Source: Pseudaminobacter soli (ex Zhang et al. 2022) (GTDB lineage Bacteria; Pseudomonadota; Alphaproteobacteria; Rhizobiales; Rhizobiaceae). Taken from it: 64,000 nucleotides of DNA. Below are positions 1-13,216 of this stretch, in pieces (positions within the stretch are counted from its first letter, which is position 1; every line of letters begins with the position of its first letter). Location: positions 186,001 through 250,000 of the forward strand of contig NZ_JABVCF010000002.1 in NCBI RefSeq assembly GCF_014595955.1, given 5' to 3'. The translations under genes were made by a program, and so were the position numbers. The notes beneath the pieces are model-generated. The model made no database searches and was not told where the DNA came from. It worked only from the letters and a program-made list of their open reading frames with translations.

Positions 1-524
1 CTCCCGTGATGCTCAAGGACTGCAATCTCGACATCGTGGAACTCGGCCACTCCGAGCGCCGAGAACATTTCGGCGAGACGGATGAGACCGTCGGGCTCAA
101 GACCGAGGCGGCCGTCCGCCACGGGCTGATCCCGCTGATCTGCATCGGCGAGACGCTAGCCGAACGCGAGGCCGGGCGTGCCCGGGAGGTGCTGGAGCGC
201 CAGGTGCGCGGGGCGCTTGGCCGGCTCGCCGGTTCGCAGAAGGATGCGCCGATCCTGCTCGCCTACGAGCCCGTCTGGGCGATCGGCGTCAACGGCATCC
301 CCGCCACCTCGGACTATGCGGATGCGCGGCAGGCCGAGATCATCGAGGTCGCTCAAGACGTTCTCGAACGGCGCATCCCATGCCTCTACGGTGGTTCGGT
401 AAACCCGGACAACTGCGAGGAACTCATCAACTGCCCGCATGTGGACGGGCTGTTCATCGGGCGCTCCGCTTGGAAGGTCGAAGGCTATCTCGACATCCTC
501 GCCAAGTGCTCGGCAAAACTCTGA
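1..524 (+). CDS. lerI: L-erythrulose-1-phosphate isomerase (TpiA-like), 5'-truncated
   Basis: This is the C-terminal two thirds (about 174 residues) of a triosephosphate-isomerase-fold protein. The frame is open to the window edge, so roughly 80 N-terminal residues lie upstream. Visible family motifs are SPVMLKD-like PVMLKD, GHSERR with the catalytic His, AYEPVWAIG with the catalytic Glu, and the phosphate-binding [10 protein letters not shown] second copy of glycolytic tpiA is possible. However, it abuts an RpiB-type isomerase and lies in a cluster with an L-erythrulose-type kinase, a RuBisCO-like protein and a DUF1537 kinase. That context points to LerI, which converts L-erythrulose-1-phosphate to D-erythrulose-4-phosphate in tetritol and apiose catabolism. 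The fold is certain; the substrate is inferred. Confidence 0.8.
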
Positions 525-535
525 AGGAGAAGACC

Positions 536-991
536 ATGAAACTCGCGATTGCTGGAGACAGTGCCGGCGAAGGCTTGGCCAAGGTGCTCGCCGACCACCT
601 GAAGGAAAAGCATGAGGTCGCCGAGGTCTCGCGCACGGACGCCGGTCCGGATGCCTTCTACGCTAACCTGTCGGACCGTGTCGCCAACGAGGTGATGCAG
701 GGCAAATATGACCGCGCCATCCTCGTCTGCGGCACCGGCATCGGCGTCTGCATCGCAGCCAACAAGGTGCCGGGCATCCGCGCCGCGCTGACGCACGACA
801 CCTATTCGGCCGAGCGCGCCGCGCTGTCGAACAACGCGCAGATCATCACCATGGGGTCGCGCGTGATCGGCTCGGAACTCGCCAAGTCGATTGCCGACGC
901 CTTCCTCAAGGAGACTTTTGATCCGCACGGCCGCTCCGCCGGCAACGTCGCTGCCATCGACGAAGTGGATGCAAAGTACACTGCCCGCTGA
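536..991 (+). CDS. derI: D-erythrulose-4-phosphate isomerase (RpiB/LacAB family)
   Basis: A 151-residue RpiB-family sugar-phosphate isomerase. ATG at 536 follows a GAAGGAGA ribosome site 11 bases after lerI stops, so the two are an operon. Key residues seen are the catalytic Cys in the [14 protein letters not shown] motif (residues about 65-78) and the C-terminal [14 protein letters not shown] segment. RpiB itself isomerises ribose-5-phosphate. Homologues paired with a TpiA-like LerI convert D-erythrulose-4-phosphate to D-erythrose-4-phosphate, feeding the pentose phosphate pathway. The pairing here and the downstream erythrulose kinase favour DerI (called EryI in erythritol clusters). A plain ribose-5-phosphate isomerase B cannot be excluded from sequence alone. 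Confidence 0.82.
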
Positions 992-1149
992 ATGAGGCGC
1001 CCGGGCGTGAACATGCGACTGCCCGGCCACCGCATAGCCTCCGGGGAGGCTTCTTGCTTCATAGCCGCCGAGGTTCCACGACACCGGAGCAGCTTGCCCG
1101 GCGACCGCCGGCCCTGTACTTGAATAGGGCCGGTCGTGGGGAGGAGCGG

Positions 1150-2160
1150 ATGAGCCTTACGCAGAAACTCATCAATGACGGCAACGCAGCCGTGGACGAG
1201 ATGCTCGCCGGCGTGATCGCCGCGCACCCCGAACATCTCTGGCGGCCGGACAACGCGCCGCGCGCTGTCATTGCGAAGCACGGGCCACGGCCCGGCAAGG
1301 TCACGCTGGTGGTCGGGGGCGGCTCCGGGCACGAGCCCACTTTCCTCGGCTATGTCGGCAAGGGGCTCGCCGATGCCGCGGCCATCGGCAACGTCTTCGC
1401 CTCTCCACCGCCGCAGCCCGCCGTCGACGCGGCCCTGGCCGCCAATGGCGGCGCCGGCGTGCTGTTCCTGTACGGCAACTACGCCGGCGACGTCATGAAC
1501 TTCGACATGGCCGCCGAACTCCTGGAGATGGAGGGCGTGGAGGCTCGCACCGTGCTGACCACGGACGACATAGCGTCGGCTCCGCGCGACCAGCGCGGCA
1601 AGCGCCGCGGCGTTGCCGGCAATGTCTTCATCTTCAAGGCGGCAGGCGCGGCGGCGGACATGATGCTGCCGCTCGACGAGGTCGAGCGCATCGCCCGCCA
1701 TGCCAATGCCCGCACCTTCACCATGGGCGTCGCACTCTCCTCCTGCTCTTTGCCGCAAACCCGGCGGCCGAGCTTCGACCTGCCGGCCGGCGAGATGGAG
1801 ATCGGCATGGGCATCCACGGCGAGCCCGGCGTCCGGCGCGGCCCCCTGCGCACCGCCAACGAGGTGGCCGACGAGATCATGGACGCCATCCTTGCCGAGA
1901 TGGACGCTCCGCGCGGCGCGCGCGTGGCGGTTCTCGTCAACTCGCTGGGCGCCACGCCGCTGATGGAACTCTACATCCTCAACGCGCGCGTCGCCGAACG
2001 CCTGGCCGCAGCGGGACTTACGGTGCACAAGACGCTGGTCGGCCCCTACTGCACATCGCTCGACATGGCCGGGGCCTCGATTACGATCATGCACCTCGAT
2101 GACGAGTTGCAGAGGATGATCGATCACCCTTGCGACTGCGCGATGTTCCGGCAGGGCTGA
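1150..2160 (+). CDS. lerK: DhaK-type kinase subunit, probable L-erythrulose kinase N-part
   Basis: A 336-residue DhaK domain protein that binds a short ketose covalently and presents it for phosphorylation. Seen in sequence: the VVGGGSGHEPTFLGYVG substrate/phosphate loop near residues 55-70, GNYAGDVMNF, and GMGIHGEPGV, whose His forms the hemiaminal with the ketose in this family. The start at ATG 1150 follows GAGGAGCGG. Its stop overlaps the start of the DhaL gene (TGATG), so the two subunits are translationally coupled. In erythritol/threitol pathways the ATP-dependent DhaKL fusion LerK phosphorylates L-erythrulose; here the protein is split in two. No EIIA-like DhaM was seen, so ATP is the likely donor. 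Dihydroxyacetone is the alternative substrate. Confidence 0.82.
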   Translation: MSLTQKLINDGNAAVDEMLAGVIAAHPEHLWRPDNAPRAVIAKHGPRPGKVTLVVGGGSGHEPTFLGYVGKGLADAAAIGNVFASPPPQPAVDAALAANGGAGVLFLYGNYAGDVMNFDMAAELLEMEGVEARTVLTTDDIASAPRDQRGKRRGVAGNVFIFKAAGAAADMMLPLDEVERIARHANARTFTMGVALSSCSLPQTRRPSFDLPAGEMEIGMGIHGEPGVRRGPLRTANEVADEIMDAILAEMDAPRGARVAVLVNSLGATPLMELYILNARVAERLAAAGLTVHKTLVGPYCTSLDMAGASITIMHLDDELQRMIDHPCDCAMFRQG

Positions 2161-2774
2161 TGATCATGGAGTTTACAGCCGAAGACGCGAAAGGTCTGTT
2201 CGCCGCCTTCGCCGCGCGGATGCAGGCGGAGAGGGACGCGCTTTGTGCCCTCGACGGGGTGATCGGCGACGCCGACCACGGCATCGCGATGGAGCAGGGC
2301 ATGAATGCCGCAGCGGAAGCTGCGAAGACAGTCGAGGCGGGCACGCTCCAGGACGTGTTCAACGCGGCTGCCAAGGCTTTCCTCAATGCGGTGGGCGCAT
2401 CTTCGGGACCGCTCTACGCCACCGCCTTCCTGCGGGCAGGCAAGGCGGCAGGCGCTCGCCCATCGATGACGGCAGGGGAATTGCGGACTGTCATCGTGGC
2501 CATGCGGGACGGCATCGTGCAGCGCGGCAAGGCAGAGCCGGGTCAGAAGACCATGCTCGATGCCTGGGCGCCCGCGGCGCAAGCCGCCGAGGCGGGTGCC
2601 GATGCGGAGGCGATCGCTGCCGCGGCCCGAGATGGAGCCGAAGCGACGCGCCAGATGGTCGCCACGCTCGGCCGTGCAGCGCGTCTCGGCGACAGGTCGC
2701 TCGGCCATCCCGATCCGGGCGCTGTTTCTGCCTCGATGCTGGTCGAGGAAATCTGCCGCGCAATGCGGGGCTGA
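2160..2774 (+). CDS. DhaL-type ATP-binding kinase subunit
   Basis: A 204-residue DhaL domain, the nucleotide-binding partner of the DhaK protein just upstream. The start ATG (2160) shares its A with the upstream stop; an alternative ATG lies two codons later. The N-terminal GDADHGIAMEQGM (about residues 38-50) corresponds to the metal/ADP-binding GDxDHG loop of the family, and GASSGPLYATAFL near residue 80 is the second conserved element. The C-terminal GDRSLGHPDPGA also fits DhaL. Length is normal for a stand-alone DhaL. Together with DhaK it should phosphorylate L-erythrulose or dihydroxyacetone at the primary hydroxyl. It is the last gene of the first operon and is followed by about 700 bases of repeat-rich non-coding DNA. 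Confidence 0.83.
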   Translation: MIMEFTAEDAKGLFAAFAARMQAERDALCALDGVIGDADHGIAMEQGMNAAAEAAKTVEAGTLQDVFNAAAKAFLNAVGASSGPLYATAFLRAGKAAGARPSMTAGELRTVIVAMRDGIVQRGKAEPGQKTMLDAWAPAAQAAEAGADAEAIAAAARDGAEATRQMVATLGRAARLGDRSLGHPDPGAVSASMLVEEICRAMRG

Positions 2775-2808
2775 GCCTGGCGCTGTAGAGGTTCCGCAGG
2801 CGCAACCA

Positions 2809-3307
2809 AAATCCCGTCCTTCGACAGGCTCATGGTTCGACAGGCTCACCATGAGGGATTTCGCGCGCCGGAGCCTCCAAGCATGGACACTCAGTGATCG
2901 AACTGAACGAGGTGCGCGACGCTTCAGTAGCCTCGTGGTGAGCCTGTCGAACCATGGGCGCTTGGCACCTGTTACGCCTTCACCGGTTTACCCCAAGCGC
3001 AAATGCCGTTTGCCAATCCTCCATCTTGATCGCTGCTTCCGATTGCTGGTCACGTCCTGATTGGTGCCGTCCTTATCGTATGGTGAATCCGTCGAACCAT
3101 GAGGTTGTGGGCGAATAGGTAAGAGCAATTGGTGCCAAGCGCCCGTGGTTCGACAGGCTCACCATGAGGGCTACTGAAGCGCTGCGCCCCACTTATCCCT
3201 CCGCCGGCTCAACTCCAGGCGGCGACGCTCCCGGACTTGGCGTCTGCGAAACCCAAATCCCTCATGGTGAACTTGTCGAACCATGAGCCTGTCGAAGGAC
3301 GGGATTT
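2809..3307. repeat. Nested inverted-repeat element (outer and inner arm pairs)
   Basis: The space between dhaL and apnO holds two nested inverted repeats. The outer arms, 2809-2861 and 3255-3307, match in 51 of 53 positions. The inner arms, 2921-2969 and 3131-3180, match with one indel and two mismatches. All arms contain the unit TTCGACAGGCTCAC or its complement, and a further degenerate copy lies near 3079-3104. The whole could fold into a long cruciform, or the transcript into a branched hairpin. I see no credible gene inside. It resembles the intergenic palindromic repeats common in Rhizobiales chromosomes; the two-level symmetry suggests nested insertion or duplication. Confidence 0.85.
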
Positions 3308-3435
3308 GGGTTTTTACCCCCCCCGTGCGCCTTTCTGTGCGGCCAGCTCTGCTGAGATGCACAGCCAACGCCTCACCAAGAGGGGCTAATGGAGCGCGCC
3401 CCCGAGGCCGAATGCCACTTGCGCAACGTTGGTCA

Positions 3436-3448
3436 ACTCATTATACCA
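3436..3448. promoter_or_regulatory. Candidate GntR operator upstream of apnO
   Basis: The 13 bases ACTCATTATACCA at 3436-3448 lie 30 bases before the apnO start. They recur exactly at 10559-10571, between the divergent gntR and oiaX genes. Two identical AT-rich 13-mers in GC-rich DNA in front of two operons of the same pathway suggest a shared operator, most simply for the GntR/FCD protein encoded at 9742-10458. Inferred from repetition and position only. Confidence 0.5.
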
Positions 3449-3478
3449 CCTGACAAGATAACAGGTGCCGGAGAGATC

Positions 3479-4306
3479 ATGTCGACGATCGCGCTGTTCG
3501 GGGCGGGCGGAAAGATGGGGTACCGCCTCGCGGCCAATCTCCGGAACTCGCCCTCTACTGTGAGGCATGTCGAGGTTGGCGAGGCCGGCCGCGCGCGGCT
3601 GAAGGAAAGTTTTGGCATCGACACCGTCGCTCCTGCCGAGGCGCTTGATGGTGCGGACGTGGTGGTTCTCGCCGTTCCTGACACGCACATCGGCAAGGTC
3701 GCCGCCGGCATCGAGAAGGGCCTGAAGCCCGGCACGATGGTGATCGTCCTCGACGCCGCCGCTCCGGCGGCCGGCCATCTGCCGGACCGTCCGGACCTCA
3801 CCTATTTCATCACGCATCCTTGCCATCCGCCGCTCTTCAACGACGAGACGGACATGGCGGCGAAGAAGGACTATTTTGGCGGCATCAAGGCCAAGCAGCA
3901 TATCGTCAGCGCCCTGATGCAAGGTCCGGAGGAGGATTTTGCCAAGGGCGAGGCTATCGCCAGGACGATCTGGGCGCCGGTCATGCGCTCCCACCGCGTC
4001 ACCGTCGAGCAACTCGCGATGCTGGAGCCGGCGCTTGCCGAGACCATGTGCGCCTCGCTGCTGGAGGTCATGCGCGAGGGCGTCGACGAGGTGGTGCGCC
4101 GCGGCGTCGACCGTCAGGCCGCCATGGACTTCCTGCTCGGCCACATCAACGTCCTGGCTTCCGTGATCTTCGAGGAGCGCGAGGGCGCCTTCTCCGACGC
4201 CTGCAACAAGGCGATCGAGTTCGGCAAGCCGGCGCTCATGCGCGATGACTGGAAGCGCATCTTCGAACCTGAGGAGATTGCCGCGAGCATCCGGCGGATC
4301 ACCTGA
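3479..4306 (+). CDS. apnO: D-apionate oxidoisomerase-like NAD-dependent dehydrogenase
   Basis: A 275-residue dehydrogenase that starts at ATG 3479 after GCCGGAGAG. It has an N-terminal Rossmann fold (IALFGAGGKMGYRLAANL, residues 4-21, and DVVVLAVPDTHIG near 60). A helical C-terminal domain of the 6-phosphogluconate-dehydrogenase type follows, and the middle segment FITHPCHPPLFND is notable. ApnO enzymes of the oxidative apiose pathway have this layout and convert D-apionate to 3-oxo-isoapionate with NAD. The neighbours (DUF1537 kinase, RuBisCO-like protein, Gfo/Idh/MocA dehydrogenase, sugar importer) are the expected partners. It is the first gene of the transporter operon and carries the candidate operator upstream. 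The alternative is a generic hydroxyacid dehydrogenase. Confidence 0.72.
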   Translation: MSTIALFGAGGKMGYRLAANLRNSPSTVRHVEVGEAGRARLKESFGIDTVAPAEALDGADVVVLAVPDTHIGKVAAGIEKGLKPGTMVIVLDAAAPAAGHLPDRPDLTYFITHPCHPPLFNDETDMAAKKDYFGGIKAKQHIVSALMQGPEEDFAKGEAIARTIWAPVMRSHRVTVEQLAMLEPALAETMCASLLEVMREGVDEVVRRGVDRQAAMDFLLGHINVLASVIFEEREGAFSDACNKAIEFGKPALMRDDWKRIFEPEEIAASIRRIT

Positions 4307-4325
4307 GGCAGCTTACCAAATCTGA

Positions 4326-5312
<987 letters not shown>

Positions 5313-5346
5313 GCCCCAACGGGCGCCTGGATTAATCTCCCAAGCG

Positions 5347-5375
5347 GCGAGGGACGCGACCAAAGCGTCCCTCGC
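5347..5375 (+). terminator. Intercistronic stem-loop after the binding-protein gene
   Basis: A perfect 11-bp stem (GCGAGGGACGC and its complement, arms 5347-5357 and 5365-5375) with a 7-base loop sits 35 bases after the binding-protein stop. There is no T-run, so full termination is unlikely. Hairpins here commonly stabilise or partially terminate transcripts so that the binding protein is made in excess over the membrane components. Confidence 0.6.
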
Positions 5376-5402
5376 GACCGATTGCGCAGGCGAGAGCACC
5401 TG

Positions 5403-6053
5403 ATGACGAAAAGCCGAAAATGGCCGATCATCGCAGTCCTCGCGATTGCGTTGGGCGGCTGCAAGATCCTGCCTACGCCCGCGGAAGGCGATACTGCCGC
5501 GGCCGGCGGCAAATTCGATCCCGATGCCATGGTCGCGAAGATCTGGGACGCCAAGGTGATCCCCTATCTCGAACAGAAGGCCGGGCCGTTCGCGGAGGTG
5601 GATGCGCTTGCCCGCAGCGACGCCAAGGCGGCGGGCGAGAAGTACGGCAATCCCAACAAGCAGGCGAACTCGCCCTGGACCTACGCAGTTCGCGTGGACG
5701 GCAAGATCGTTGCCGCCAACACCAAATCCCGCGCGGCCTCGATCGACGTCGACGTCGATGTGGATGGCGACGGCAAGGCCGACCTGCGCGCCGAGATCGG
5801 GCCGGCCATGCGCGGAACGGCGCTGCGTGATGTGCTCGACTTCGTCAACTTCAATGAATTCATAAATCAGATCGACTTCGCCCAATACGGCAAGGCCTTC
5901 AACACCTATGCCGACAAGACCGTCCTCTCCAAGCTCCCGCGCGAGAACCTCGAGGGGCACAATGTGAGGCTGCTCGGCGCCTATGTGCCGGCAAACGGCA
6001 GTGATCTGCCGCTGCTGACGCCTGCCAAGGCCGAGATCGGACCTTCGCCATGA
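5403..6053 (+). CDS. DUF2291 family lipoprotein linked to sugar ABC importer
   Basis: A 216-residue predicted lipoprotein. After a short basic start (TKSRKW) comes a hydrophobic stretch ending in the lipobox LGGC at residues 17-20, followed by a Ser/Ala-rich linker and a globular domain. The family (DUF2291) is regularly encoded inside RbsABC-type sugar transporter operons of Rhizobiales; its role is unknown, perhaps assisting the importer at the periplasmic face of the inner membrane. The 3' end overlaps the ATPase start by four bases, so it is co-translated with the transporter. An Asp-rich run (DVDVDVDGDGKAD, about residues 116-128) resembles a calcium-binding loop, an observation not known to be functional. 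Confidence 0.75.
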   Translation: MTKSRKWPIIAVLAIALGGCKILPTPAEGDTAAAGGKFDPDAMVAKIWDAKVIPYLEQKAGPFAEVDALARSDAKAAGEKYGNPNKQANSPWTYAVRVDGKIVAANTKSRAASIDVDVDVDGDGKADLRAEIGPAMRGTALRDVLDFVNFNEFINQIDFAQYGKAFNTYADKTVLSKLPRENLEGHNVRLLGAYVPANGSDLPLLTPAKAEIGPSP

Positions 6054-7603
6054 GCCCGGTGCTGAGCGACGTCGTCCTCAGTCTCGAGGACGTCTCCAAG
6101 GTCTATTCGGGCACGGTGGCGGTGAAGCACGCGACGTTCGATGTGCGGCGCGGCGCCGTCAACGTGCTGGTGGGCGAGAACGGCGCCGGCAAGTCCACAA
6201 TGATGCGGATGTGCGCCGGCGTCGAGAAGCCGACCAGCGGGCGCATCCTGCTCGACGGCGAGGAGGTGACCTTCAACTCCTCCGGCGATGCGGTGGCGCG
6301 CGGCATCGGCATGGTGTTCCAGGAATTGAACCTCTTCGGCAACATGACCGTCGCCGAGAACATCTTTGCCACGCGCGAGATCACCAACGCGCTCGGCCAT
6401 ATCGACCACAAGGAGCAGGAGCGGCGCGCCGGCGAATTCCTCGACCGGCTGCAGGCCGGGATCAAGCCGACGACGATGGTCGAGGACCTGACGATCGGCC
6501 AGCAGCAGCTGGTCGAGATCGCCAAGGCCGTGTCGCTCGACGCCCGCGTGCTGATCATGGACGAGCCGACATCGGCGCTGTCGGCGGCCGAGGTGGAGAT
6601 CCTGTTCAAGGTGATCGCCGACCTAAAGGCCCGCGGCGTGGCGATCGTCTACATCTCGCACCGGCTGGAGGAGCTCATCCGCATCGGCGACTACATCACC
6701 GTGCTTCGCGACGGCCGCATCACCGGCCAGGAGGAGATGAGGAACGTCGACACCCAGTGGATCGTGCGCCAGATGATCGGCTCCGACGCAAAGGATTTTG
6801 CCAAGCCGGACGGCCACGAGCCGGGTGGGGAGGTGTTCCGCGCCGAGGAGATCAGTTTGCCGCGGGCAACGGGCGGGCTCGCCGTCGACCATGTGTCGCT
6901 CTCGCTCAGGGCAGGCGAGATCCTCGGCATCTACGGGCTGATGGGCGCCGGCCGCAGCGAACTCTTCGACTGCATCATGGGGAGGCACGGCCACGCCACC
7001 GGCCGGATCTACATCGAGGGCAGGGAAGTCCGCGAGCGCGATCCGGCGGGGCGGATCCGGCGCGGGCTCGCGCTCATTCCCGAGGATCGCCAGCGCGAAG
7101 GCCTGGTCACCATCCTGTCCGTCGCCTCGAACCTCACATTGGCGAGCCTGCAGAAATTCGCGAAGCTCTTCCACATCAGGGGCTCGCTCGAGCGCGGCGC
7201 CGTGCGCGAGATGGTGAAGGACCTTTCGATCAAGGTCGCCGACCCCGACAACGAGGTGTCGTCGCTCTCCGGCGGCAACCAGCAGAAGGTGGTCATCGGG
7301 AAGGCGCTGCTTACCGGCCCGAAAGTCCTGCTGATGGACGAACCCAGCCGCGGCATCGACGTGGGCGCCAAGGCGGACGTGTTCCGCACCATGCGCAGGC
7401 TTTCGCGGGAGGGGATAGGCATCCTCTTCGCCACGTCCGACCTCGATGAGGTCATGGCGCTGTCGGACCGCATAGCCGTGATGAGCAATGGGAAGCTGAC
7501 CGGACTGTTCGAGCGGGCCGAGGCGACGGAAGCGGCGATCGTCGCCGCGTCGGCCCTGGGGCACGGTCCGGCCAAGGGAACTGGGAGGTCCGCACATGTC
7601 TGA
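6050..7603 (+). CDS. Sugar ABC transporter ATP-binding protein (RbsA type, two ABC domains)
   Basis: A 517-residue duplicated ATPase. The first half carries Walker A GENGAGKST (about residue 44), signature LTIGQQQLVEIAKA and Walker B VLIMDEPTSAL. The second half has the usual degenerate Walker A (GLMGAGRSELF), signature LSGGNQQKVVIGKA and VLLMDEPSRGIDVG. This asymmetric layout is standard for the RbsA/XylG/AraG class, which powers uptake through a homodimer of the adjacent permease. It overlaps DUF2291 upstream by four bases and the permease downstream by eight, so the import genes form one tightly coupled operon. Confidence 0.93.
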   Translation: MSPVLSDVVLSLEDVSKVYSGTVAVKHATFDVRRGAVNVLVGENGAGKSTMMRMCAGVEKPTSGRILLDGEEVTFNSSGDAVARGIGMVFQELNLFGNMTVAENIFATREITNALGHIDHKEQERRAGEFLDRLQAGIKPTTMVEDLTIGQQQLVEIAKAVSLDARVLIMDEPTSALSAAEVEILFKVIADLKARGVAIVYISHRLEELIRIGDYITVLRDGRITGQEEMRNVDTQWIVRQMIGSDAKDFAKPDGHEPGGEVFRAEEISLPRATGGLAVDHVSLSLRAGEILGIYGLMGAGRSELFDCIMGRHGHATGRIYIEGREVRERDPAGRIRRGLALIPEDRQREGLVTILSVASNLTLASLQKFAKLFHIRGSLERGAVREMVKDLSIKVADPDNEVSSLSGGNQQKVVIGKALLTGPKVLLMDEPSRGIDVGAKADVFRTMRRLSREGIGILFATSDLDEVMALSDRIAVMSNGKLTGLFERAEATEAAIVAASALGHGPAKGTGRSAHV

Positions 7604-8657
7604 TGCCACCGTGCAGATGGGGGTGGCGCCCTCGAGCAGCTCCGTGCTTCTGACCCTGATGAAGGCGCGGACCTTCATCGCGCTAATCGCCGTCCTCGTC
7701 TTCTTCTCCCTTGCAGTGCCGAGTTTCCTCTCCACGGCGAACCTGATCCTCATGTCGAAGCACGTCGCGCTCAACGCCTTCCTGGCGATGGGCATGACCT
7801 TTGTCATCATCACTGGCGGCATCGACCTGTCGGTCGGGTCGATCGTCGGGCTATGCGCCATGGTGGCGGGATACCTGGTCCTCAACGGCATCGACCTGCA
7901 GATCGGCTACACCGTCTATTTCAACGTGCCCGAGATCATCCTGATCACACTGCTGGTCGGCATCCTCATTGGGGCGATCAACGGACTGTTGATCACCCGG
8001 CTCAACGTCGCGCCGTTCATAGCAACGTTGGGAACGCTCTATGTGGCGCGCGGCGCTGCGCTGCTCTCATCGGACGGCCGCACCTTCCCGAACCTCGTCG
8101 GCAATCCCGATCTCGGCAATACGGGCTTCGGCCATCTCGGCGCCGGTCGCATTCTCGGCCTTCCGGTCTCGGTGTGGCTGCTCATCGTCGTGGCGCTGGG
8201 GGCGGCCTACCTCTCCAAGTACACGACGCTCGGCCGCCACATCTATGCGGTCGGCGGCAACGAGCGGGCCGCACGGATATCGGGCGTGCGCGTGAACCTG
8301 GTGAAGATGTTCGTCTACATGTTCTCCGGCTTCTGCGCGGCGATCGTCGGGCTGATCATCTCCTCGGAACTGATGGCGTCGCACCCGGCGACGGGCGAGA
8401 CTTTCGAGCTGAATGCGATCGCAGCCGCGGTGCTCGGCGGAACCTCGATGTCGGGCGGGCGCGGCGCGATCGGCGGCACCATCGTCGGCGCATTCGTCAT
8501 CGGCATCCTGTCGGACGGCCTGGTCATGATGGGCGTGAGCTCGTTCTGGCAGATGGTCATCAAGGGGCTGGTCATCATCGTCGCGGTGGTGGTGGACCAG
8601 GCGCAGCGGAAGCTGCAGCAGAGGGTCACGCTGATGCAGATGGCAAAGGCCGGGTGA
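7596..8657 (+). CDS. Sugar ABC transporter permease (RbsC type)
   Basis: A 353-residue inner-membrane permease with about nine to ten hydrophobic segments. It shows the family segment VIITGGIDLSVGSIVGL (about residues 70-86) and, near the C-terminus, AIAAAVLGGTSMSGGRGAIGGT, which contacts the ATPase. The start overlaps the ATPase gene by eight bases. It forms the channel of the importer whose binding protein is at 4371-5312. The N-terminus (residues 1-25) is slightly longer than in RbsC and polar. Substrate is inferred from the pathway genes around it. Confidence 0.92.
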   Translation: MSDATVQMGVAPSSSSVLLTLMKARTFIALIAVLVFFSLAVPSFLSTANLILMSKHVALNAFLAMGMTFVIITGGIDLSVGSIVGLCAMVAGYLVLNGIDLQIGYTVYFNVPEIILITLLVGILIGAINGLLITRLNVAPFIATLGTLYVARGAALLSSDGRTFPNLVGNPDLGNTGFGHLGAGRILGLPVSVWLLIVVALGAAYLSKYTTLGRHIYAVGGNERAARISGVRVNLVKMFVYMFSGFCAAIVGLIISSELMASHPATGETFELNAIAAAVLGGTSMSGGRGAIGGTIVGAFVIGILSDGLVMMGVSSFWQMVIKGLVIIVAVVVDQAQRKLQQRVTLMQMAKAG

Positions 8658-8661
8658 GAGT

Positions 8662-9693
8662 ATGGCAGATATGAAGGCAGGGCTGATCGGCTGCGGCTTC
8701 TTCGCCGTTAACCAGATGCACGCCTGGCAGGACGTGGACGGTGCGTCGGTCGTCGCCATCTGCGATCGCGATCCCGAACGGCTGCGGATCGTCGGCGACC
8801 AGTTCGGGATCGAGCGCCGCTACGCCGATGCGGGCGAGATGCTGGCTTCCGAGAAGCTCGACTTCGTGGACGTGGCGACGACGGTCGGCAGCCATAGGGC
8901 GCTGGTCGAGCTAGCCGCCGCGCACAAGCTGCCGGTGATCTGCCAAAAACCGTTCGCGCCGACTCTCGAGGATGCAAAGGCCATGGTGGAGGCGTGCAAG
9001 GCGGCGGGCGTGCCCCTCATGATCCATGAGAATTTCCGCTGGCAGTCGCCGATCCAGGCGGTGAAGGCGGCGATCGATACCGGCGCGATCGGCACGCCGT
9101 TCTTCGGGCGTATCTCGTTCCGGTCGGCCTATGACGTGTTCTCCGGCCAGCCCTATCTCGCCAAGGGCAAGCGCTTCATCATCGAGGATCTCGGCATCCA
9201 CATCCTCGACATCGCCCGCTTCCTGCTGGGCGACGTGACGACGCTCACCGCCCGCACGCGGCGCGTCAATCCGGCGATCGCCGGCGAGGACGTGGCGACT
9301 ATGCTTCTAGACCATCAATCCGGAGCGACCTCCGTCGTTGACTGCAGCTATGCGACGAAGCTCGCTGTCGAGCCGTTCCCGGAGACGCTTGTGGAGATCG
9401 ACGGCGACAAGGGCACGATCCGCCTGGACCAGGGCTTTCAGCTTACCGTCACCGGGGAGGCGGGCTCAAGCACGACCGATGTTTCGCCTCCGCTGCTTCC
9501 CTGGGCTTCGCGACCCTGGCACAACATCCAGGAGAGCGTCCTGACGATCCAGCAGCACTGGGTCGACTGCCTGCGCAGCGGCCGCGACCCGGACACCTCG
9601 GGCGCCGACAACCTGAAGACTTTTGCGCTGGTCGAGGCGGCCTATCTTGGGGCAGCGAGCGGACAGCCGGTCGCCGTCGCCGATCTCCTTTGA
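8662..9693 (+). CDS. apsD: Gfo/Idh/MocA dehydrogenase, probable D-apiose dehydrogenase
   Basis: A 343-residue NAD(P)-dependent dehydrogenase starting five bases after the permease stop. The Rossmann motif GLIGCGFFAVNQMHAW (residues 7-22) and the VICQKPFAPT segment (EKP-type motif, Lys near residue 95) define the Gfo/Idh/MocA family. IIEDLGIHILDIARFLLGD (about 173-191) supplies the conserved Asp/His pair. In oxidative apiose catabolism the ApsD enzyme of this family oxidises D-apiose to apionolactone, and its clustering with apnO, oiaX and oiaK fits that role. No lactonase (ApnL) gene is visible in the window, so either it lies upstream or the lactone hydrolyses spontaneously. Another sugar could be the true substrate. 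Confidence 0.7.
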   Translation: MADMKAGLIGCGFFAVNQMHAWQDVDGASVVAICDRDPERLRIVGDQFGIERRYADAGEMLASEKLDFVDVATTVGSHRALVELAAAHKLPVICQKPFAPTLEDAKAMVEACKAAGVPLMIHENFRWQSPIQAVKAAIDTGAIGTPFFGRISFRSAYDVFSGQPYLAKGKRFIIEDLGIHILDIARFLLGDVTTLTARTRRVNPAIAGEDVATMLLDHQSGATSVVDCSYATKLAVEPFPETLVEIDGDKGTIRLDQGFQLTVTGEAGSSTTDVSPPLLPWASRPWHNIQESVLTIQQHWVDCLRSGRDPDTSGADNLKTFALVEAAYLGAASGQPVAVADLL

Positions 9694-9741
9694 CGATGTG
9701 AGACTTTCCTTCGACGCACGCCGTCGCGAGCGCTCATAGCG

Positions 9742-10458
9742 TCAGGGTTGGGGTGCAGCGATGGAATAGAGCGCGCGCGACCGCTCGAGGTGCCTGATCA
9801 TCGCCTGCTCGGCGCCCTCGGGATCGTGCGCGGCGATGCGCTCGATGATCTCTTCGTGCTCGGTCAGCGTGAACTTCTCCTTGCCGGTCCAGATCAGCAT
9901 GTCGGTATGATACTCTTTCAGCCAGCCGAGCATCGCCTCGCTGACCGCGACATAGATCGGGTTGCCTGAGATCGTGGCAATTTGCGAGTGGAACCGCATG
10001 TCGGCTGCAATGAAGGCCTCGGCATTGCCGAGGTGACTGCGTTGCTCGTCGAGCGTCGCCCGCAGCTGCGCGACGTCATCCTCGGTAGCCTTCGCCGCCG
10101 CGTCCCGCACCATGCCGCGCTCGAAGAAGATGCGTGCGCTCTTCAGGTGCTCCAGCGAATCCGCCGAGGAGGAAAGCATGATCTTGGCGGCCACGTCGAC
10201 CTGCCGGAAGATCGACTGCGCCGTAAGCTGAAGCACCTTGGCTCGCTCGCCGTGCGAGATCGCCACGAGCCCCATATTGGCCAGCGCCTGCATGGCCTCG
10301 CGGATCGCCGGCCGGCCGACGCCGAAGCGTTCCATCAGTTCGCGCTCGGAAGGCATCTCGTCGCCGGGCTGGAGTTCGCCGCTGACGATCAGGCGCTTGA
10401 GGCGGAGGAAGACTTCGTCGGAAAGCTTGCGTCTTACGATCGGTTCCGAAACGTTCAT
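9742..10458 (-). CDS. GntR-family (FCD domain) transcriptional regulator
   Basis: A 238-residue regulator. Residues 10-75 form the GntR winged helix (LKRLIVSGELQPGDEMPSER, then GVGRPAIREAMQALANMGLV). The C-terminal FCD domain (about 95-230) has the metal-ligand pattern: Asp/His in DMRFHSQIA, His in TEHEEI, and His in MIRHLERS. It is convergent with apsD and divergent from oiaX. The intergenic region holds the 13-mer that also precedes apnO. It most likely represses the apiose/apionate operons and is released by a pathway acid intermediate; this is inference from position. Confidence 0.85.
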   Translation of the reverse strand: MNVSEPIVRRKLSDEVFLRLKRLIVSGELQPGDEMPSERELMERFGVGRPAIREAMQALANMGLVAISHGERAKVLQLTAQSIFRQVDVAAKIMLSSSADSLEHLKSARIFFERGMVRDAAAKATEDDVAQLRATLDEQRSHLGNAEAFIAADMRFHSQIATISGNPIYVAVSEAMLGWLKEYHTDMLIWTGKEKFTLTEHEEIIERIAAHDPEGAEQAMIRHLERSRALYSIAAPQP

Positions 10459-10558
10459 GGCTTGAGACGCCTTGATGGTGAATCGCTGTTGCTCGAACGC
10501 CTAGCACACCTGCGGGCACAAGACTCGCCATACGAGGCGCTACTTGCGTTGCCGGCAT

Positions 10559-10571
10559 ACTCATTATACCA
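10559..10571. promoter_or_regulatory. Candidate GntR operator between gntR and oiaX
   Basis: Second exact copy of ACTCATTATACCA, lying about 100 bases from the gntR start and 55 bases before oiaX. Its position would allow one bound regulator to control both divergent transcripts. See the copy at 3436-3448. Confidence 0.5.
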
Positions 10572-10625
10572 GTTCTCCGGTTTGGGGAAGTATTGCGGCA
10601 CTTCCCGTTCCGAAAGGCGGACAAG

Positions 10626-11879
10626 ATGATCGTGTTTACCTACCGGATCGAGACCGCGGGCAACATCGAGGTCCTTGCCGCGAAGATTGCCAGCGATCAG
10701 TCGACCGGTACCTTCGTCGCCCTGCCAGGAGAGACCGAGGAACTGAAGGCGAGGGCAGCCGCGCGTGTGCTCGACATCCGCACGCTGGGGCCGCTCGATG
10801 TTCCTTCGATCCCCGCGCCCGGCGAGCGAGGCCCGTTCAAGCGCGCCGATGTCGACATCGGCTTCCCGCTCGACGCGATCGCCACCGACTTGTCGGCCCT
10901 CATGACGATCGCGATAGGCGGCACCTACTCCATCAAGGGTCTCACCGGCATTCGCGTGATGGATATGAAGCTGCCGGAGGAGTTCCGGGGCGCTCATCCG
11001 GGTCCGCAGTTCGGTGTCGAGGGCAGCCGCCGACTCACCGGCGTTAAGGGCAGGCCGATCATCGGTACGATCGTGAAGCCCGCGCTCGGCCTCAGGCCGG
11101 AGGAGACCGCGGCGGTCGTGAAGGAGCTTGTCCAGTCCGGCGTAGACTTCATCAAGGACGACGAGAAACTGATGAGCCCGGCCTATTCGCCTCTCGCGGA
11201 GAGGATCAAGGCGATCATGCCAATCATCCTCGACCACGAGCAGAAGACCGGCAAGAAGGTGATGTACGCCTTCGGCATCTCGCATGCCGATCCCGACGAG
11301 ATGATGCGCAACCACGACCTCGTGGCGGAGGCAGGCGGCAATTGCGCCGTCGTCAACATCAACTCCATCGGCTTCGGCGGAATGGCCTTCCTGCGCAAGC
11401 GCTCGCGGCTCGTCATCCATGCCCATCGCAACGGCTGGGACATCCTCACCCGGCACCCCGGTCTCGGCATGGAGTTCAAGGTGTGGCAGCAGTTCTGGCG
11501 GCTGCTCGGCGTCGATCAGTTCCAGATCAACGGCATTCGCGCGAAATACTGGGAGCCGGACGAGTCCTTCGTCGCCTCCTTCAAGGCCATATCGACGCCG
11601 ATCTTCTCCCCCGGTGACTGTGCGCTGCCCGTGGCCTGCTCCGGTCAATGGGGCGGCCAGGCGCCCGAAACCTATCAGCGCACCGGCCGCACGCTCGATC
11701 TCATGTATCTTTGCGGCGGCGGCGTCGTCAGCCATCCCGACGGTCCGGCGGCCGGCGTGCGGGCGGTGCAGCAGGCCTGGGAGGCCGCAGTGCAAGACAT
11801 CCCGCTCGACGAATATGCCAGAACACATCTTGAGCTGCGGCACGCAATCGACAAATTCGCGGAGGGAAAGGCGGCGTGA
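10626..11879 (+). CDS. oiaX: RuBisCO-like protein, probable 3-oxo-isoapionate-4-phosphate decarboxylase
   Basis: A 417-residue RuBisCO large-subunit fold protein. It keeps the carbamylation/metal triad in GVDFIKDDEK (Lys, Asp, Glu), the Lys of GTIVKPALG, the His of HAHRNG and a Lys in the loop-6 position (GIRAKYWEP). By eye it lacks true-RuBisCO residues: the second Lys of KPKLG is Ala, the loop Asn before the KDDE segment is Gly, and HIHSG reads QFQIN. It therefore cannot be a normal carboxylase. Next to a DUF1537 kinase and ApnO-like gene it fits OiaX, which removes CO2 to give L-erythrulose-1-phosphate. The lerI-derI pair supports OiaX over the hydrolytic OiaT. ATG 10626 was chosen; a TTG at 10593 is possible. 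Confidence 0.75.
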   Translation: MIVFTYRIETAGNIEVLAAKIASDQSTGTFVALPGETEELKARAAARVLDIRTLGPLDVPSIPAPGERGPFKRADVDIGFPLDAIATDLSALMTIAIGGTYSIKGLTGIRVMDMKLPEEFRGAHPGPQFGVEGSRRLTGVKGRPIIGTIVKPALGLRPEETAAVVKELVQSGVDFIKDDEKLMSPAYSPLAERIKAIMPIILDHEQKTGKKVMYAFGISHADPDEMMRNHDLVAEAGGNCAVVNINSIGFGGMAFLRKRSRLVIHAHRNGWDILTRHPGLGMEFKVWQQFWRLLGVDQFQINGIRAKYWEPDESFVASFKAISTPIFSPGDCALPVACSGQWGGQAPETYQRTGRTLDLMYLCGGGVVSHPDGPAAGVRAVQQAWEAAVQDIPLDEYARTHLELRHAIDKFAEGKAA

Positions 11880-13216
11880 TCGACATGCAAGACCTGCTGC
11901 TGAGCTACTACGGCGACGACCTGACCGGCTCGACCGACGTCATGGAGGCTTTGTCGCTCGGCGGCGTGTCGACCGTGCTTTTCCTGCGGCAGCCGGACGA
12001 AGAACTGCTGTCGCGTTTCGGCGATTGCCGGGCGGTGGGGCTCGCCGGGACTGCCCGCAGCCAGACGCCGGACTGGATGGACGCGCATCTGTCGCTCGCC
12101 TTTGAATGGCTGAAGGGGCTGGGTGCCGCGCTCTGCCACTATAAGGTCTGCTCCACCTTCGATTCCAGCCCAGCGGTGGGCAGCATCGGACGCGCCATCG
12201 AGATCGGCCGCGGGGTTTTCGGCGATGCGCCGGTGCCCGTCGTGGTCGGTGCGCCGCAGATCAGACGCTACACCGCCTTCGCAAACCTCTTCGCGCGCTA
12301 CCGGGAGCACGTCTACCGGATCGACCGCCACCCCGTGATGTCACGCCATCCCGTGACGCCGATGGACGAGGCCGATCTGCTTCTGCATCTCGGCAAGCAG
12401 ACCGCCCTGAAGTCGGGCCTCGTCGATCTCGCGGCGATTGGAGCCGGCGGGGCTGCGACCGAGGCCGACCGGCTCTCGGGGGAGGGCGCGGCCATCATCT
12501 TGTTCGATGTCGCGAGTGCCGAGACGCAACGATCAGTCGGTGCCGAGATCTGGCGCAGGCGCGCTTCCAGCCCGTTCGTGGTCGGCTCATCGGGGGTGGA
12601 ATATGCGCTGATCAACGCCTGGAAGACGGCCGGCCTTGCGCCCGGGCCGGCGAGCTACGCTGGCGCGGGCGAGGTCGACAGGCTGGCGGTCGTCTCGGGC
12701 AGCGTCTCGCCGACGACGGAACGGCAGATCGCGCATGCTCTGGCGAACGGTTTTGACGGCATCGCGCTCGATCCTCTGGAATTGGTCTGCGAACGCGGCG
12801 ACGTTGCAATGGAAGATGCGATCCGGCTCGGCAACGCCAGCCTGACTGCCGGCCGCAGTGTCATTCTGTACACGGCGATGGGGCCGCAGGCCGACCGCGG
12901 CAGCGAGATCGACGAGAAGCCGGGTGCCCGCCATCTGCTCGGAAGAAGGATAGGGACCATCCTCCAGCGCCTGATTGCCGAGCAGGGCCTGAAGCGCGCC
13001 GTGATTGCCGGCGGGGATACGTCCAGCCATGCGCTCGGCGAACTGGGGGTGGACGCGCTGACAGTGTTGATGCCCCTGCCGCAGACGCCAGGCTCGCCGC
13101 TCTGCACCGCGCACAGCCGCGACGCCCGCGTCGACGGCCTGCAGATTGCGCTGAAAGGCGGCCAGATCGGCCACGACGACTATTTCGAGACCATCCGCCG
13201 AGGCGCGCTCAACTGA
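11876..13216 (+). CDS. oiaK: DUF1537 four-carbon acid sugar kinase family, probable 3-oxo-isoapionate kinase
   Basis: A 446-residue kinase of the four-carbon acid sugar kinase family. The N-terminal motif YYGDDLTGSTDVMEAL (about residues 11-26) binds the sugar acid. The C-terminal VIAGGDTSSHAL (about 380-391) is the family ATP-binding element. GTG 11876 overlaps the oiaX stop (GTGA), with ATG three codons later as an alternative start. Coupling to a RuBisCO-like protein is the pattern of OiaK-OiaX, where OiaK phosphorylates 3-oxo-isoapionate to supply the decarboxylase. DUF1537 kinases also act on erythronate, threonate and 2-oxo-tetronate, but no dehydrogenase/PdxA2-type partner is present here. 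Confidence 0.77.
   Translation: MIDMQDLLLSYYGDDLTGSTDVMEALSLGGVSTVLFLRQPDEELLSRFGDCRAVGLAGTARSQTPDWMDAHLSLAFEWLKGLGAALCHYKVCSTFDSSPAVGSIGRAIEIGRGVFGDAPVPVVVGAPQIRRYTAFANLFARYREHVYRIDRHPVMSRHPVTPMDEADLLLHLGKQTALKSGLVDLAAIGAGGAATEADRLSGEGAAIILFDVASAETQRSVGAEIWRRRASSPFVVGSSGVEYALINAWKTAGLAPGPASYAGAGEVDRLAVVSGSVSPTTERQIAHALANGFDGIALDPLELVCERGDVAMEDAIRLGNASLTAGRSVILYTAMGPQADRGSEIDEKPGARHLLGRRIGTILQRLIAEQGLKRAVIAGGDTSSHALGELGVDALTVLMPLPQTPGSPLCTAHSRDARVDGLQIALKGGQIGHDDYFETIRRGALN

Follow-up and report, generated by a model that had tools for sequence, protein, structure and literature searches.

How is the lactone ring opened in an apiose catabolic cluster that lacks a lactonase gene? The question is raised by a 64,000-nucleotide stretch of the genome of Pseudaminobacter soli (ex Zhang et al. 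2022) (contig NZ_JABVCF010000002.1, positions 186,001 to 250,000; the window), whose first 13,216 positions hold genes of the oxidative D-apiose pathway without apnL, the gene of the lactonase ApnL. The explanation that we favour, with a confidence somewhat above even, is that of a working oxidative D-apiose cluster that has lost its own apnL, the lactone being opened by a divergent member of the ApnL family whose gene lies on contig 6 of the same genome (G000:C6:8208-9986, minus strand; the C6 protein). D-apiose would be imported by the products of 4371-8657, the Gfo/Idh enzyme (8662-9693) would oxidise it to D-apionolactone, and the C6 protein would then open D-apionolactone to D-apionate. 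ApnO (3479-4306) would convert D-apionate to 3-oxo-isoapionate, which OiaK (11876-13216) would phosphorylate and OiaX (10626-11879) would decarboxylate to L-erythrulose-1-phosphate. LerI and DerI, which would serve both apiose and erythritol, would finally yield D-erythrose-4-phosphate.

The apiose cluster and its empty lactonase slot

The features of the block, whose anatomy and family membership were read directly and whose substrates we infer, are:

3-524, plus: 3' part of the gene of a LerI-type L-erythrulose-1-phosphate isomerase (TIM family, PF00121); the whole gene is L009:17754-18524 and starts 247 bases before the window
536-991, plus: DerI-type D-erythrulose-4-phosphate isomerase (RpiB family; NF051858, 254 above the cut-off of 240)
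1150-2160, plus: DhaK kinase subunit (PF02733), candidate substrates dihydroxyacetone or L-erythrulose
2166-2774, plus: DhaL kinase subunit (TIGR02365, 181 above 138)
3430-3448: operator-like dyad TGGYATA-N5-TATRCCA, two mismatches, upstream of apnO
3479-4306, plus: ApnO-like, predicted D-apionate oxidoisomerase (PGDH_C family; PF16896, 237 bits)
4371-5312, plus: RbsB-type periplasmic binding protein, predicted D-apiose type
5403-6053, plus: DUF2291 importer lipoprotein (PF10054)
6050-7603, plus: ATP-binding cassette (ABC) importer ATPase
7596-8657, plus: ABC importer permease
8662-9693, plus: Gfo/Idh/MocA dehydrogenase (PF01408), candidate D-apiose dehydrogenase (ApsD)
9694-9741: empty apnL slot (a gene of about 1.8 kb in relatives)
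9742-10458, minus: GntR-family regulator, NanR-like with FCD (NF003011, 355 above 260)
10553-10571: the same dyad, one mismatch, in the divergent gntR/oiaX promoter
10626-11879, plus: OiaX, 3-oxo-isoapionate-4-phosphate decarboxylase, a RuBisCO-like protein (NF042437, 787 above 700)
11876-13216, plus: OiaK-like DUF1537 kinase (PF07005/PF17042)

Genes oiaX and oiaK run divergently from gntR, and the remaining genes of the block are all on the plus strand. The ATPase and permease were named from frame translations and relatives rather than from a library scan, on the basis of the open frames, the gene order in relatives and the annotation of the Rhizobium etli homologues. An earlier note, made from the letters of this DNA, had named these families, and open frames and profile models recovered every one of them at the same coordinates.

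The oxidative route to erythrose-4-phosphate that the note proposed is supported by the comparison with the R. etli cluster. The ApnO-like protein is 74% identical to its R. etli counterpart (nearest solved chain, 5t57) and falls below the cut-offs of all NCBIfam equivalogs, as does the Gfo/Idh protein, a member of its family with 72% identity to the R. etli cluster protein. The binding protein reaches 87% identity, and its R. etli counterpart matches the PDB chains 5ibq and 4ry0, the former reportedly solved with D-apiose. On a tree, the 10626-11879 protein lies within the OiaX clade, separate from a second cluster-linked RuBisCO-like group, so that a placement outside the clade, which the note had named as refuting its proposal, was not seen. 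The OiaK-like kinase, 63% identical to the R. etli cluster kinase, scores 459 on NF042436 (cut-off 700). The cluster kinases of R. etli (473) and Mesorhizobium L015 (462) score alike; the low score is therefore no argument against OiaK, and a different identity for this kinase was dropped.

Relatives were collected by scanning genome contigs for OiaX, which gave 423; all counts on 80 loci refer to the best 80 of these 423, which come from Mesorhizobium, Rhizobium, one Ochrobactrum and other Rhizobiales and are in part truncated, either at a contig end or by the 10-kb flank. A family sample of 151 genomes and a genus sample of four, which includes G080, G151 and G152, were also used; G000 is the P. 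soli genome. Within the identity limits set, OiaX was accompanied by the kinase and the GntR regulator in 80/80 loci each, by Gfo/Idh in 79/80, by the binding protein in 75/80 and by ApnO in 73/80, a co-occurrence far above chance. The R. etli CFN 42 genes are arranged gntR / oiaX-oiaK-lerI-derI-apnO-importer-gfo/idh-apnL-dhaK-dhaL.

In relatives, the Gfo/Idh gene is followed by a gene of about 615 codons, whose R. etli copy passes the ApnL model NF049900 (1050 above 750). ApnL sequence, intact or broken, was found after Gfo/Idh in 77 of the 79 loci testable for this slot (L092 is cut before it), 64 of them with a 3-base spacing by tblastn coordinates; at L054 and L059, tblastn found no ApnL after Gfo/Idh at E 1e-20, and a short 5' relic is kept. 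In the window, the stops of the Gfo/Idh and GntR genes are only 48 bases apart, and tblastn at E 0.01 detected no apnL relic in the window or its slot. The note had advised looking upstream of position 1, but the 18 kb upstream of the window contain no ApnL-family match in a whole-genome search. The P. soli genome (6.1 Mb in 51 contigs) is listed as 100% complete. The lactonase is truly absent from the cluster, which bears out the statement in the note that the route lacks only a visible lactonase.

A divergent lactonase on contig 6 and the loss of apnL

The P. soli genome contains a single supported ApnL-family match, the C6 gene, which is unlinked to the cluster (next match, E 0.11). Its neighbours encode a CUT1-type sugar importer, a 2-hydroxyacid dehydrogenase, an HpcH/HpaI aldolase and a second NanR-like GntR regulator. 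Separate from the cluster lactonases, the C6-type enzymes make up one clade of 15 rows (Shimodaira–Hasegawa-like approximate likelihood ratio test, SH-aLRT, 100). Of the 113 positions that are near-invariant in the cluster lactonases, the C6 protein retains 100, including 35 of the 38 charged or amide ones; at the level of sequence this shows a conserved fold and site and not the substrate, because other ApnL classes retain such positions too. In Pfam, neither canonical ApnL nor the C6 protein matched a model. The predicted fold of a Mesorhizobium ApnL, a moderate model with a mean predicted local distance difference test score of 71, matched heparanase-, glucocerebrosidase- and GH30-like glycosidases in Foldseek, the best being 7pr9 (template modelling score 0.41 of the query). 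Ten D/E/H positions are family-wide in ApnL, among them E328 and E407 of the C6 protein, which may be catalytic, a hint only.

In the family sample, 27 of the 151 genomes carry OiaX over the cut-off, each together with exactly one ApnL-family match at E 1e-50. The lactonase gene lies beside Gfo/Idh in 25 of the 26 OiaX genomes other than P. soli; in the exception, G038, apnL is missing and the C6-type module directly adjoins oiaK-derI-oiaX-gntR-gfo/idh. Within the genus, G152 presents the same split as the window, with a slot lacking apnL and the C6-type module elsewhere, while G080 has a normal apnL, and in G151 a related cluster has a different RuBisCO-like protein. The lactonase-aldolase module is complete in four genomes, G000, G152, G038 and G074.

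The fate of apnL was surveyed in 79 of the 80 genomes (L019 left out; L077, L080 and L092, being cut, were judged from genome searches). As a forward test, L054 and L059 were known to lack apnL before their genomes were searched, and the searches then gave a C6-type lactonase in both and no other supported match. Overall, apnL is lost or broken in six of the 10 genomes with a C6-type lactonase, against one of the 69 without (Fisher test, 5e-6, treating genomes as independent, which relatives are not). Five different kinds of lesion occur among the six losers: apnL is deleted in L054 and L059, carries a stop codon in L058 and a frameshift in L064 and L073, and combines frameshift and deletion in L068. 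That the lesions differ counts more than the Fisher test. An extra ApnL homologue is not always tied to loss, since five Mesorhizobium genomes (L204-L208) with a third ApnL class (477–499 bits, beside a 46–48% Gfo/Idh relative) all keep an intact apnL.

Sugar lactones hydrolyse spontaneously, and D-apionolactone might open in this way or through an unrelated lactonase, so that no dedicated lactonase is needed, apnL is dispensable and the C6 enzyme irrelevant. In line with this, apnL is frameshifted in L057 and a second ApnL homologue was not found there, a case that also speaks against a take-over by C6-type enzymes. Yet this is one frameshift in one assembly and the only break among the 69 genomes without the C6 type, the other 68 having apnL intact, and all 27 OiaX genomes of the family sample hold an ApnL-family gene. 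We regard a dispensable lactonase as unlikely, though deserving to be kept in mind.

The remaining genes were compared between relatives for signs of decay. One apnL deletion junction appears to be common to L054 and L059, so most of their divergence should post-date the loss, and their ratios of non-synonymous to synonymous substitution rates (dN/dS) are 0.02–0.25 over 12 genes (ApnO on 120 codons only). Between the window and G152, whose apnL losses may be separate, dN/dS is 0.09–0.32 over nine genes. For Gfo/Idh the two pairs give 0.11 and 0.25, and for the binding protein 0.07 and 0.09. These estimates suggest a cluster that has stayed in use since the loss of apnL, and purifying selection speaks against decay. 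A cluster that is decaying and non-functional, with the apnL loss as its first lesion, would account for the missing canonical gene, but the selection seen in the pair with the shared deletion, the open frames of the remaining cluster genes and the OiaX score of 787 bits, fourth among the 27 OiaX genomes, make it most improbable. The cluster could also now serve apionate or another acid made elsewhere, making the lactonase and perhaps the dehydrogenase unneeded; apnL is gone and apnO, oiaK and oiaX are retained, as this would predict. However, an apionate-only cluster would have no need of the dehydrogenase, and the genes for Gfo/Idh and the apiose-type binding protein are retained and constrained (dN/dS up to 0.25), for which reasons we think a specialisation of this kind very unlikely.

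A possible connection between the cluster and the C6 module is provided by the operator-like dyads, which are expected by chance, at up to two mismatches, at 0.07 sites per 64 kb (30 random sequences). Through them, the window GntR regulator probably acts at the promoters of apnO and oiaX. Their 14-base core, TACTCATTATACCA, occurs in 78/80 loci, and in only 21/80 does the full dyad, at up to two mismatches, lie in the 200 bp upstream of oiaX. Perfect copies were found in the contig-6 gntR promoter (L098:17712) and in G038; G152 and G033 have copies with one mismatch. The C6 module has a related regulator of its own, which is 43% identical to the window GntR protein; the dyads fit shared control but would also suit two related regulators with similar sites.

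Several observations weigh against a take-over by the C6 protein. It scores 643 on NF049900, under the equivalog cut-off of 750, and shares 42% identity with R. etli ApnL. Four of the 10 carriers (L026, L038, L048 and L055) have an intact apnL despite their C6-type lactonase. On the oiaX tree the six losing Mesorhizobium fall into one clade, and a tree-corrected paired test, without power, gave two same, none opposite and two undecided cases (p 0.5). Two of the lesions each amount to one frameshift in one assembly, L058 is a metagenome-assembled genome, and the genomes of G152 and G038 are 85% and 88% complete. In G043, G074 and nine Mesorhizobium, the fetched C6-type stretches, several of which end before the promoter, showed no dyad. 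Finally, G033, G043 (a genome only 76% complete) and G074 carry the C6-type lactonase and importer without OiaX (at the limit used) or ApnO, and the G033 module has a one-mismatch dyad nonetheless. The C6-type module thus has a task of its own. It might form a second, previously undescribed route, whose substrate would be apiose, apionolactone or a similar aldonic lactone, branched or short. The classical route would have its inducer, operator and lactonase in common with this one, and apnL would for that reason be dispensable. The lactonase would open the ring, the dehydrogenase would oxidise the 2-hydroxyl and the aldolase would cleave the 2-oxo acid to hydroxypyruvate and a small aldehyde, with no need for phosphorylation or the RuBisCO-like protein; this is a guess, and we consider it decidedly unlikely. 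We retain lactone opening by the C6 protein, in the service of the window cluster, as the favoured explanation.

Isomerases probably shared with an erythritol operon

The 13-kb block had been taken as one unit, which it is not: its first four genes continue an eryABCD operon that starts upstream of the window. The 18 kb upstream contain an FtsH-like frame (named by eye), the erythritol operon and a second kinase/dehydrogenase pair. A divergent DUF2291 importer comes first, and the genes after it code for an FGGY kinase, a GlpD-like dehydrogenase, a TIM-barrel epimerase-like protein and a SorC/LsrR-like regulator; the TIM (LerI) and RpiB (DerI) genes follow directly. The EryA-D proteins are 69–89% identical to those of Rhizobium leguminosarum in matching gene order, and eryABCD, tpiB-rpiB and the divergent importer, the hallmarks of an erythritol operon, are all present. 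Judged from this arrangement, LerI-DerI-DhaK-DhaL is the tail of the erythritol operon. Erythritol genes lie inside the fetched stretch in 17/69 full-length loci.

LerI is 82% identical to TpiB of the R. leguminosarum ery locus and 73% to LerI of the R. etli apiose cluster; for DerI the values are 83% (RpiB) and 64%. Being closer to the ery-locus enzymes, these isomerases belong to erythritol use, and most likely the apiose route borrows them. An RpiB homologue on contig 4 was rejected as a second DerI, being only 37% identical. In alphaproteobacterial erythritol use, as described in PMC12780249, erythrulose phosphates lead to erythrose-4-phosphate, and with the operon tail in the block erythritol becomes a further entry point. 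To the two entry points proposed in the note, a kinase for free L-erythrulose and OiaX, erythritol adds a third. The entry through DhaK/DhaL is a candidate one: no curated model fixes the DhaK/DhaL substrate. DhaK misses the dhaK1 equivalog cut-off.

Other elements were noted in these surroundings. A second FGGY kinase and GlpD-like dehydrogenase (L009:4401-7903) adjoin the erythritol importer and perhaps serve another polyol. A fused DhaK-DhaL kinase, 60% identical to the window DhaK, is encoded in another sugar-uptake cluster on contig 48 (L010:11293-13119). Between dhaL and apnO, at 2804-3312, lie inverted repeats in nested arrangement (58-nt arms, 95% complementary), whose relatives occur on contig 49; they make up a REP-like (repetitive extragenic palindrome) intergenic element.

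Known systems and significance

The pathway itself is already known. Carter et al. (2018, Nat Chem Biol 14:696) reportedly described the oxidative D-apiose pathway with its RuBisCO-like branch. Their pathway paper is cited in PMC6302742. The OiaX-type pathway has in common with the window the importer, a Gfo/Idh dehydrogenase, ApnO-like and OiaK-like proteins, OiaX, LerI/DerI-type isomerases and a GntR-type regulator, and the R. etli CFN 42 cluster has an identical set of genes; in most Mesorhizobium loci the order from apnO to oiaK is also the same. The window cluster differs in being without apnL, the only ApnL homologue being divergent and on another contig, and in taking its isomerases from an erythritol operon. 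In R. leguminosarum, whose type of locus is described in PMC3599248, the erythritol locus likewise has a DUF2291 importer divergent from eryA-eryB-eryC-eryD, then tpiB and rpiB. It has one more regulator gene, whereas the window operon has no eryR-like gene between eryD and tpiB, dhaK-dhaL following rpiB and the apiose cluster adjoining. Growth on D-apiose was reported for the Rhodobacteraceae strain LCG007, which has a lactonase, dehydrogenase, oxidoisomerase, 3-oxoisoapionate kinase and decarboxylase, the lactonase, unlike here, within its cluster (PMC11747546). In a literature search that most subscription journals lay outside, loss of the lactonase was not reported, and lactonase terms appeared only in PMC11747546.

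Two further kinds of RuBisCO relative were observed. Clusters with ApnO, ApnL and OiaK in L164 (G151) and L173-L176 contain the second RuBisCO-like group, perhaps of the OiaT type; the L164 protein scores 438 on the OiaX model, under the cut-off of 700. Contig 23 of P. soli (L099:7571-9025) encodes a genuine RuBisCO large subunit (NF003252, 802 above 438), and the organism may also fix CO2.

The gap in a known pathway thereby receives an explanation, with C6:8208-9986 as the probable missing lactonase, and the pattern of gene loss in relatives makes this claim testable. The lactonase-aldolase module is also brought to light, with a lactone as its candidate substrate. The gene arrangement points to a common pair of final enzymes for apiose and erythritol use in this organism, and a check confined to the operon could misjudge the organism as a non-user of apiose.

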